From the NCBI GenBank assembly GCA_019634595.1, contig JAHCBC010000002.1:372001-436000 (forward strand): a stretch of 64,000 bases of DNA, read 5' to 3'. Both the position numbers and the translations under genes were made by a program. Shown in pieces: positions 247-3,838 of the stretch; position 1 is the stretch's first letter; the number at the start of each line of letters is the position of its first letter. Under the pieces are notes generated by a model. That model was not told where the DNA came from. It ran no database searches and saw only the letters and a list, made by a program, of their open reading frames with translations. The DNA is from Akkermansiaceae bacterium. Lineage in GTDB: Bacteria; Verrucomicrobiota; Verrucomicrobiia; Verrucomicrobiales; Akkermansiaceae.

Positions 247-269
247 CTCGGATTTTTTTCAGAGCAGGT

Positions 270-506
270 TTATTTACTCTTTCGTTGAAGCCCTATTGGA
301 CCGCTCAAACGACGCTTCCTATTGGTATTGGGAGATAATCGCTTACACCGAGATTCGGTTCGTTGTTGCAGCAATAGCATCAGCAGTGAAGTGAACGATG
401 ATCGTCGATCTGCAGGTCTACAATTTCTCACCTTTAATGACGGGACTTTTATCCACGCGACCATAAGGGTCAGGGCCAAGCATAGAATTGTGATTTCTTG
501 GATCAT
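270..506 (-). CDS. possible small membrane protein downstream of the HTH gene
   Basis: This 78-codon frame begins 19 bases after the stop of the HTH gene on the same strand. It opens with a hydrophobic segment (ITILCLALTLMVAWI, residues about 5-19) followed by a strongly basic, serine-rich tail. An AAGG lies about 7 bases before the ATG. No family is recognised. The surrounding stretch 247-525 is AT-rich and holds nothing else that could be supported, so chance coding is possible. It is listed because of its position after the regulator and its single clean transmembrane helix. Confidence 0.25.
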   Translation of the reverse strand: MIQEITILCLALTLMVAWIKVPSLKVRNCRPADRRSSFTSLLMLLLQQRTESRCKRLSPNTNRKRRLSGPIGLQRKSK

Positions 507-525
507 AGAGTTACCTTGGAAGGTT

Positions 526-993
526 TTATTTGATGGTTTTCCGAGATCCCTTATTCGCAATCAGCTGCTCACTTTTCAGATCTACGAGGGCTTCCATTAA
601 TTTCGTAAAATGGAAGCGGTTGGTTGCACCCTTCCTCATTTCCCGATGTAGATATTTTTTTGCCTCGAGACTCGCCGCTAGCCTTCGTGCTGTTTTGTGC
701 GAAACAACCATTCTCACGGCAATGGTTTTGTAAGCAGGGAAAGGTGCTGCGTCGCTCCACTTATACTGCATCAGGTGGATCACAAACATTGCTTCTCCGT
801 GGGTCAATGGGTAGGGCTTCAGTCGGTGATAGTTCTCTAAGAAAAAATTGCTAACTTGAGTGAACCCCTCTTTTTTGATAGCCGGATGCCATCGGTTTTC
901 GAAATTGCGGTCACCGCTTTCGGAGCTGCTTTTCGTGGATTTCTTGGCTGCTTTCTTCGCTGTCATTTGCAGGAACAGTCGCGAATATTGCAT
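526..993 (-). CDS. helix-turn-helix DNA-binding protein (HTH_36-like)
   Basis: A 155-residue basic protein. Residues 1-30 are Lys/Ser-rich and probably disordered. Residues 60-120 form a winged-helix-like region in which PAYKTIAVRMVVSHKTARRL reads as the helix-turn-helix, preceded by LTHGEAMFVIHLMQYKW. This layout resembles the HTH_36 family found in replication-initiator-like and phage or plasmid regulators. A second in-frame ATG at 966 would remove nine residues, and neither start has a clear ribosome site. Upstream, at 1088-1166, lies a phased palindrome array that could be its target. The gene is AT-richer than its neighbours, which suggests acquisition by transfer. Its regulatory target is not known. 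Confidence 0.6.
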   Translation of the reverse strand: MQYSRLFLQMTAKKAAKKSTKSSSESGDRNFENRWHPAIKKEGFTQVSNFFLENYHRLKPYPLTHGEAMFVIHLMQYKWSDAAPFPAYKTIAVRMVVSHKTARRLAASLEAKKYLHREMRKGATNRFHFTKLMEALVDLKSEQLIANKGSRKTIK

Positions 994-1087
994 CCTGTGG
1001 CAAACACATCAGAGTCCACGCGCTGCTTGTATTAGATTATTAGTCTATTTCATCATTTCATCTTCATAAGTTATTCGTCTTCTTTGG

Positions 1088-1166
1088 TAGACATTATTGT
1101 CTAGGCCTCCCTACTCAAAATTGTCTAGGGTTAGAATAGACAATAATGTCTAGGGGGGTATAGACA
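1088..1166. promoter_or_regulatory. phased array of TAGACA-N4-TGTCTA operator-like sites
   Basis: Two 16-bp palindromes, 1088-1103 and 1137-1152, are exact reverse complements of each other (arms TAGACA and TGTCTA, centres TTAT and ATAA). Two further half-sites, TGTCTA at 1122-1127 and TAGACA at 1161-1166, fall so that the four implied dyad centres lie 24, 25 and 24 bp apart. The array sits in the 366-bp gap between the divergent HTH gene and the DUF1080 gene, starting 95 bp upstream of the HTH start. It is most simply read as an operator or iteron set for the HTH protein. A weaker TAGATT...AGTCTA dyad lies at about 1033-1047. A separate AT-rich hairpin occurs at 1238-1261. Confidence 0.6.
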
Positions 1167-1359
1167 TATTTTCCTCCTGAAAATCATCTAACCGTTGAAA
1201 TGGAAAAACCAGATTGGGCGGTTAAAGGACTTGGGTAGCCGAAAAATCGGGTATTTTCGGCCCCCTGCATATGGGCAACCCTGTGAAACTTATCCCTTGG
1301 ATCGCTTGGATAATCTGAAATTCCTTCTCTAAGGACGAAGGCTTCGATAGACGCGATCC

Positions 1360-2262: not shown

Positions 2263-3693
2263 TCAGTTGGCGGGGGCCGCGGGGAAGACGACCTTGGAGG
2301 CTTTCTTTCCACCGCTGAAGAGGTCGCTGACATCCTTCGAGCTGACGAACAGCATGAGGGAGATGAGCGCCAGCGCGAACGCGGTCTGGATGATCTCGAG
2401 CGGCTTGGCCTTCACCGGCCGACCGGCGATCTTTTCCAGGATGGCAAGGACGATGTGGCCGCCGTCCAGCACCGGGAACGGCATCATGTTCAGCACGGCC
2501 AGGTTCACGTTGAAAAGAACCATGAAAGCCAGGATGCGCCGCCAGCCGTTGTCGGTCTGCAGCAGCTTGAACTTCATGTTGAAGATGCCGACAGGGCCAC
2601 TCAGGTGATCCACGCCGATGCTCGACTGCGGGGAAACCACGCTGGAGATCGTGACCCACATCATGTTCAGGCTGTCCTTCACCTGCCGGATGGGTCCGGG
2701 GTGGACGATGTGGACATCCACATCACTCCGGCCGCTCCATGCGATACCCAGCATGGGGAACTTGTCATTGGGAGGCAGGGGCTTCTTCGGCGTCGCGGTG
2801 ACCTGGCGGATGGATCCGTCTTTCGCCTTCACGCCGAGTTCCACCGGATTCCAGTTCTTCTCCTTCATGTAGGCGCTGAGCTGTACGGGACTCAGGAGAG
2901 GGATGCCGTCATAGGTGACGATTTCCTCGCCTGGCTTGAGGCCGACATCCGCGGCGGAACTGTTGGGGGAAACGGCCTCCACGATCGAAGGGGTGGAGGG
3001 TGCCATACCCACTTCCCGCAACGCACGGCGCTGGAAGAACCCGGTTTTCTCGATTTCAAAGCCAGAGCTGAGCTTGAGCGGCTCCGCTTCGCCCGCCCTG
3101 CGGACGGTGAACTCGATCTTGTCCCCACGGCTGAGGATCACGCTCTCGCTGATGGAGTCCAGGGTGCCCGCGAATCCCCGCATCGGCTCGCCGTTGACCG
3201 CCTCGATCACATCCCCGGGGCGGATGCCCGCCTTATCCGCGGGACCGCCTTTTTCCACATAACCGATCTCCTTGGTGGTGATGACATCGGCGGGCTTGCC
3301 GACCATCCAGACGCCGACCGCCGCCAGCAGCGCGAGCAGCATCGAGAACAGAGGCCCGGCGAACGCGACGATGATCTTGTCGAGAGGCGTGATGGGTGGG
3401 AGCGGCTTCCCATCCTCATTGCGGGTTCCACCTTCGATGGATTCCATCGGCGCCATCTGCGGCAGGGCGACGAAGCCACCGGCCGGGATCCAGCCGAGGC
3501 CATACTGGACCCCGTTGATTTCCTTTTTCCAGATCGGCTTGCCGAACCAGATCTGGAAGCGGTCGATCTTAAGGCCCCGCCATCTGCCGGCGAGGAAGTG
3601 TCCCAGTTCGTGGACGAAGATGATGATGTTGAAGCACAACAGCACGACAAGGATGATGCCGATGGCTTTCAGAACAGTGTAAAGGGTATCCAT
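2263..3693 (-). CDS. rseP: site-2 membrane metalloprotease RseP (M50)
   Basis: A 476-residue intramembrane zinc protease. The catalytic HELGH motif is at residues 28-32 inside the first transmembrane helix. The second metal-ligand motif, PFPVLDGGH, is near residue 410, followed by a final membrane helix. Between them are two PDZ domains (GIRPGDVIEAVNG and GLKPGEEIVTYDG), as in RseP of Gram-negative bacteria. The family cleaves membrane-anchored anti-sigma factors and remnant signal peptides inside the bilayer. No anti-sigma gene lies beside it. It is the last gene of a minus-strand run that includes FloA and two NfeD proteins, separated from the gene before it by 158 bp containing a palindromic repeat. 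Confidence 0.92.
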   Translation of the reverse strand: MDTLYTVLKAIGIILVVLLCFNIIIFVHELGHFLAGRWRGLKIDRFQIWFGKPIWKKEINGVQYGLGWIPAGGFVALPQMAPMESIEGGTRNEDGKPLPPITPLDKIIVAFAGPLFSMLLALLAAVGVWMVGKPADVITTKEIGYVEKGGPADKAGIRPGDVIEAVNGEPMRGFAGTLDSISESVILSRGDKIEFTVRRAGEAEPLKLSSGFEIEKTGFFQRRALREVGMAPSTPSIVEAVSPNSSAADVGLKPGEEIVTYDGIPLLSPVQLSAYMKEKNWNPVELGVKAKDGSIRQVTATPKKPLPPNDKFPMLGIAWSGRSDVDVHIVHPGPIRQVKDSLNMMWVTISSVVSPQSSIGVDHLSGPVGIFNMKFKLLQTDNGWRRILAFMVLFNVNLAVLNMMPFPVLDGGHIVLAILEKIAGRPVKAKPLEIIQTAFALALISLMLFVSSKDVSDLFSGGKKASKVVFPAAPAN

Positions 3694-3765
3694 TGGAGGG
3701 TGTCAGATGCCACGAAACCTAGCGTCACGGGACGCAGCGGCAAGTGGATTAAAATGGGGGCGGAA

Positions 3766-3838
3766 TGGAGCGCGGGCTTCAGCCCGCCCCGGAGAATCCG
3801 GACTTCGCGAAGCCAAGCGGACTGAAGTCCGCGCTCCA
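3766..3838. repeat. 73-bp palindromic repeat, type A (copy 1)
   Basis: The element is bounded by 17-base terminal inverted repeats, 3766-3782 and 3822-3838, that match at 16 of 17 positions (outer half TGGAGCGCGG). The centre carries GAATCC and a CTTCGCGAAG palindrome. A second, more diverged copy is at 45044-45113 and shares the GGAGAATCC and GCGAAGCCAAGC blocks. It sits between rseP and the small membrane-protein gene. The size and structure fit a REP or MITE-like non-autonomous element. Confidence 0.7.

Follow-up and report, generated by a model that had tools for sequence, protein, structure and literature searches.

The array of inverted repeats at positions 1088–1166 of the window (the whole 64-kb stretch of DNA analysed here) is probably an operator array through which an acquired, defence-associated regulator, now an orphan, controls its own gene. 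Its four units start at intervals of 24/25/24 bp (Table 1). Dyads 1 and 3, both of the form TAGACA-N4-TGTCTA, are exact reverse complements of each other, whilst dyad 2 is degenerate and unit 4 is a lone half-site. The preliminary description of this DNA reported 16-bp dyads that are exact reverse complements, half-sites and a 24–25-bp spacing, and both sequence and coordinates bear this out.

Table 1 Features of the array, its surroundings and related loci (window positions, except for the hairpins, which are given relative to the start of the HTH gene on each plasmid)
Feature	Position	Strand	Basis or remark
Perfect dyad 1, TAGACATTATTGTCTA (TAGACA-TTAT-TGTCTA)	1088..1103	.	Sequence and motif match
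Degenerate dyad 2, TACTCAAAATTGTCTA (TACTCA-AAAT-TGTCTA)	1112..1127	.	One perfect arm, one 4/6 arm
Perfect dyad 3, TAGACAATAATGTCTA (TAGACA-ATAA-TGTCTA)	1137..1152	.	Sequence and motif match
Half-site 4, TAGACA, lone	1161..1166	+	Sequence, half-site count
HTH gene, 155 aa, DnaD_N/HTH_36 winged-helix protein	526..993	-	ORF, Pfam, alignment
Possible small hydrophobic ORF (MIQEITILCLALTLMVAWIKV...), downstream of HTH gene	276..506	-	Doubtful
AT-rich patch, 44.6% GC	247..1359	.	Between trmL and 3-keto-disaccharide hydrolase gene; part of 2.0-kb insert
Hairpin, L044	-63..-27		
Hairpin, L046	-47..-11		
Hairpin, L062	-52..-16		
Hairpin, L047	-74..-38		

A stretch of 366 bp contains six TAGACA/TGTCTA half-sites, whereas 0.14 would be expected; the maximum in 5000 dinucleotide shuffles was three, and the whole 64 kb holds just one half-site besides the six of the array. 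At up to two mismatches the dyad has four matches in the window (0.33 expected), and at up to one mismatch it is confined to the array across the 5.09-Mb (5,094,573-base) genome. For the pair of half-sites that face outwards in the array, the genome holds one further match, at one mismatch. An exact single-copy dyad in one relative (G068) is taken as chance because a reversed control pattern also yields single hits, in four genomes. No sigma-70-like promoter was found in the AT-rich patch. The TGTCTA half-site led us to consider a BlaI/MecI-type operator; this was rejected because a global regulator should have numerous sites, not a single genomic locus for its dyad, and because the adjacent protein has no BlaI/MecI-family Pfam match.

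On one side of the array is the HTH gene and on the other, divergently oriented, a 3-keto-disaccharide hydrolase gene (1360–2256). The HTH protein scores slightly above the Pfam cut-offs for both DnaD_N (30.3 bits, cut-off 27) and HTH_36 (26.1 bits, curated cut-off 25), in agreement with its initial assignment as HTH_36-like. A profile of the family matches structures of the DnaD N-terminal domain in hmmsearch (2vn2 at 3.3e-9, 2v79 at 3.1e-8). The AlphaFold model of the window protein is of low confidence (pLDDT 62.6) and Foldseek returned no match for it at E below 1. Alignment with one relative (L052) favours an in-frame ATG at 963 (145 aa), making this a more likely start than the ATG at 993; the 95 bp originally given between gene and array holds for ATG 993 but becomes 125 bp for ATG 963. 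We also considered a leader peptide ahead of the HTH gene, where an ATG comes after a Shine–Dalgarno-like stretch near 1163 (minus strand), but rejected it because, by eye, its start codon is not conserved in L053. The doubtful small membrane ORF downstream has no Pfam match, and no counterpart was noticed in L051–L053. In L054 an ORF of ~42 aa with one hydrophobic stretch (about 2142–2270) directly follows the HTH gene and is itself followed by a TIR-domain gene.

Several observations indicate that this DNA was acquired. The AT-rich patch stands out from a window-wide GC content of 63.3%; the window's lowest-GC 1.1-kb tiles fall here, and the patch stops short of the hydrolase gene, which is 63.7% GC. 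We compared the positions of trmL and rseP across a set of 61 genomes of the genus, working out the gaps by hand from match ends. The two genes are convergent and adjacent on one contig in ten genomes, of which eight have gaps of only 9, 15, 15, 15, 16, 32, 52 and 133 bp; the gap is 2022 bp in the window genome and 2674 bp in G028. In G001 and G004 the genes share a contig yet lie far apart, and in the remaining genomes they are on different contigs or gave no hit. The gap in G028 holds, by eye, two short-chain-dehydrogenase-like genes and a regulator, and this different cargo in another species (on contig C254 of G028, L131:948-3561) suggests that the trmL–rseP junction is a recurrent insertion point. 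The AT-richness noted at the outset is real, and the suspicion of acquisition is supported by the empty site in relatives and by the absence of the gene from 58 other genomes. Some 1.6–4.1 kb to the left of the window start, a patatin-like phospholipase gene precedes one that matches SLATT_1 (SMODS/SLOG-associated 2TM) (L066:9909-12429, minus strand); both are of normal GC content and the pair is a possible defence cassette near the insertion.

The DnaD_N/HTH_36 family to which the window protein belongs is rare in the phylum and common on plasmids. The window protein was found in one of the 59 genomes of a first relative set, this being its own genome, and in 2/387 genomes of the phylum and 2/384 of the class, sets that overlap and include its own genome each time. 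A scan of genome contigs gave four relatives, L051–L054, that are 39–59% identical in the alignment; a further locus, L050, was dropped as it shares sequence with L054, lies on a contig of equal length and looks like the same locus. Amongst plasmid records, 37 were matched by the window protein and 351 by a Sulfitobacter member, so that the plasmid link suggested earlier for the gene holds for a family that is mainly plasmid-borne. We read 24 plasmid stretches, having dropped two near-identical copies (L043 of L045 and L058 of L036) before counting. Members are common on small plasmids from Enterobacteriaceae, Acinetobacter and Alphaproteobacteria. The listed plasmid rows name the proteins no more precisely than 'helix-turn-helix domain-containing protein' or 'hypothetical protein', or leave them unannotated. 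Viral contigs held two relatives of L055 and none of the window protein, the close-relative alignment A3, L034, L039 or L064; 50,697 phage records gave one weak hit. No papers on the family or the array were recognised in the open-access literature, judged mostly by title and abstract.

Related sites recur upstream of part of the family. We searched the 350 bp before the gene start at 29 non-redundant loci (24 plasmid, four chromosomal and the window). The pattern GAC-N6-GTC, which was chosen after reading some of the sequences tested, occurs 17 times against 1.5 expected; leaving out the window gives 15 occurrences for 1.4 expected, a number reached in 0/200 shuffles. Spacings of 0–5 and 7–12 between GAC and GTC gave just 0–4 occurrences, none comparable to N6. 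The strict dyad RGAC-N6-GTCY is present in only five of the 29 regions. Pair distances were then measured between sites with at least five of the six letters of GAC-N6-GTC, with the window left out: 12 pairs lie 22–25 bp apart against 0.5 expected (0/200 shuffles) and six lie 46–49 bp apart against 0.41 expected, with lesser excesses of 3–4 pairs each at 5–9, 14–17, 42–45 and 50–53 bp. The 22–25-bp pairs come from six of 28 regions (L039, L053, L055, L057, L059 and L064), two of which, L055 and L057, are not independent, as their proteins are 78% identical. The window itself contributes nothing to this bin because its second dyad is degenerate. Examples include Pseudomonas p11K1, with four sites at 22/23/23 bp, and Sphingomonas, with three at 24/23 bp; L041 (Methylosinus) has a CGTCA-N4-TGACG variant phased at 24/24 bp. 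Judged by these patterns, a portion of the family shows 22–25-bp phasing.

In the intergenic regions of the close relatives, half-sites of the set TGTCYA, TRGACA, TGGTCA and TGACCA number five in L051 (p 0.000), three in L052 (p 0.006), three in L053 (p 0.003) and four in L054 (p 0.000), against 0.34–0.42 expected; on a narrower GTCYA/TRGAC count L052 is not raised (1, p 0.589) and L054 only slightly (3, p 0.046). Searches of three complete plasmids show the cognate dyads concentrated ahead of the HTH gene, with four of six matches there on L138, 4/7 on L137 and 8/20 on L139, where the element is held twice with four upstream dyads per copy and a further match lies near a DNA-invertase gene. 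The k-mer test, applied per locus, found an enriched 5-, 6- or 7-mer (p<0.01) in six of 30 non-window regions (L041, L047, L051, L053, L064 and L065). Three loci found later gave little support when run through the same script: L141 showed one 22-bp pair of imperfect sites, a result reached by 23/1000 shuffles, and L142 and L136 showed none; L136 has a different repeat, at 22–23 bp.

Four gamma-proteobacterial plasmids have, immediately before the HTH gene, perfect 15-pair hairpins with 7-nt loops, identical in geometry and unrelated in sequence (Table 1). The GAC-N6-GTC array is missing from this subgroup and is therefore not universal in the family. The preliminary description had attached weight to whether homologous HTH genes have such sites upstream, and here the family divides: several relatives carry them, whilst L142 gave no 22–25-bp pair and the hairpin subgroup has no GAC-N6-GTC array. 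Its suggestion of a self-regulated switch is likewise in line with a phased array common to part of the family, though not to the whole of it.

What lies beside these genes suggests a possible link between the family and defence. Plasmids in general are rich in defence, toxin–antitoxin and nuclease genes. In a set of 29 loci (the 28 upstream-set loci other than the window, plus L136), with calls made by annotation or profile search, such a gene is present in the fetched stretch at 18, as a raw count with no background control: L034, L035, L037–L042, L046, L047, L052, L054, L055, L059, L061, L063, L064 and L065. L036, L044, L045, L048, L051, L053, L056, L057, L060, L062 and L136 were not counted; candidates seen by eye in this second group are an NYN-like gene in L136, an AlbA-like gene in L051 and, in L053, a PIN-like gene and a GNAT-like gene below the cut-off. 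The defence models matched were Gabija, Shedu, PD-T4-5/AbiD, HEC-09, PDC-M04A and TIR, and further neighbours have HEPN or NYN matches or Abi, restriction–modification or toxin–antitoxin annotations. The array of Sulfitobacter p5 separates the HTH gene from a divergently oriented gene that matches HEPN_RiboL-PSP.

Under the favoured reading, array and HTH gene would have arrived together on a mobile element that inserted between trmL and rseP. Each 16-bp dyad (TAGAC-N6-GTCTA) is probably bound by a dimer of the winged-helix protein, and dimers on neighbouring sites ~24 bp apart may assist each other's binding, such that cooperative occupancy would shut off the HTH gene's own promoter. Because relatives such as Sulfitobacter p5 have the array placed between their HTH gene and its neighbours, the family probably autoregulates and holds toxin or defence genes silent. 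With no effector adjoining the HTH gene here, the module in the window looks like an orphan or remnant. That same lack of an effector in the window genome counts against an operator, as do the failure to find a sigma-70-like promoter in the patch and a spacing of 24.5 bp, which does not correspond to an integral number of helical turns. One family member, moreover, is the only annotated gene of a 2.3-kb ColE1 plasmid, a poor fit to a regulator of neighbours.

Two known defence regulators invite comparison with the predicted operator. Proteins of the BrxR family, found in phage-defence islands, are HTH regulators that bind inverted repeats upstream of their own genes and have diverse defence neighbours, as described in PMC9122601; in our case binding is predicted and the defence link a possible one. 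Repeats were found there for only 193 of 347 BrxR homologues (PMC9122601). BrxR differs in its WYL domain and in its inverted repeat, which is 11 bp long and has a 5-bp spacer (PMC9122601), whereas the window encodes a short DnaD-like protein beside phased 16-bp dyads, and neither it nor the four relatives scanned have a Pfam match to WYL. AbiEi, an antitoxin and autorepressor linked to abortive infection, is a winged-HTH protein that binds two inverted repeats in its own promoter, but it is described as belonging to a two-gene operon and as binding non-cooperatively (PMC3985639); the HTH gene in the window has no adjacent toxin partner.

Other explanations can be set against this predicted operator. 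That the repeats are fortuitous or neutral is barely credible: AT-rich DNA favours palindromes, but none of the 5000 shuffles reached six half-sites and the sites recur upstream of relatives. Only slightly less remote is the idea that the array, lying as it does between two divergent genes, serves the hydrolase gene and answers to a chromosomal regulator whose gene lies elsewhere; the dyad has no second locus in the genome, the array sits in the AT-rich patch that ends before the hydrolase gene, and relatives with other neighbours have similar half-sites by the HTH gene. A role in replication, with the array as an iteron-type origin and the protein as its initiator, is also improbable. Iteron-type modules have repeats phased at about 22 bp, and the 24/25/24 phasing of the array, with the 22–25 bp seen in part of the relatives, is of this kind; the protein resembles the DnaD N-terminal domain and its two closest PHROG matches are replication initiators, with weak scores (7e-4 and weaker). 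DnaD of Bacillus and Geobacillus, however, differs in that members of the window-protein family reside on plasmids and in islands and the rest of DnaD is not seen in these short proteins. DnaA boxes have the motif TTWTNCACA, and none was found near the array, the nearest being at 3251. The HTH_36 Rep proteins proposed for Paracoccus plasmids and pKL1 RepA offer a precedent, being HTH_36 proteins of small plasmids with repeats upstream (PMC3832669), but pKL1 RepA aligns over 48 HTH columns only and shares just that motif, and the window-protein family coexists with other replicons. These are ColE1 RNAI on L036, L043, L044, L045, L046 and L058, RepM on L047, a rolling-circle-type rep ('protein rep') on L048 and RepA on L139; the protein is therefore not a needed initiator on those plasmids, and a replication role is disfavoured. 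On L035, L137 and L138 no annotated initiator was seen. The preliminary description's alternative of a relic plasmid replication module thus loses ground, and a phage replication module sits poorly with the viral and phage searches above.

A more serious contender than any of these, if still a doubtful one, is plasmid maintenance, in which the protein coats the phased array and the resulting complex acts like a centromere or by handcuffing, as for the single-protein StbA/stbDR system of R388, and the chromosomal copy is the fossil of an integrated plasmid. The family's abundance in plasmid records fits this, as do its presence on ColE1-type plasmids of 1.7–6.8 kb and its being the sole annotated gene on one of them. 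StbA is likewise described as a small plasmid DNA-binding protein acting on repeats at its own promoter, with the ATPase StbB dispensable for stability (PMC3098194). The stbDRs, by contrast, are 9-bp direct repeats with 2-bp spacing, in a stbABC operon beside the origin of transfer (PMC3098194), where the window has dyads every 24–25 bp. ParA genes are already present on plasmids such as L062, L138 and L139, and many family members lie near defence genes.

Returning to the family as a whole, we tentatively consider a broader possibility, one that we think rather unlikely as it stands: that this widespread, unnamed DnaD-like plasmid family, with a lineage-specific dyad every 22–25 bp ahead of each gene, acts as a one-protein module. 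Such a module would either segregate plasmids with no need of an NTPase or switch on plasmid-borne defence genes once the nucleoprotein array is disturbed or lost, and the window would hold a domesticated chromosomal copy. A recurring operator with fixed phasing offers a direct, testable handle on the family's function. Were it to control defence genes, it would add another class of regulator beside BrxR; were its role plasmid segregation, it would be a rare example of a system that works without an NTPase.

Two of the plasmid records show features of their own. That of Sulfitobacter pontiacus p5 (L139) appears to hold the whole plasmid twice, its genes repeating at about 19.4 kb, and a 5.7-kb Vibrio plasmid (L035) carries the PAGEV RNA family twice, at 818–1036 and 3572–3790.
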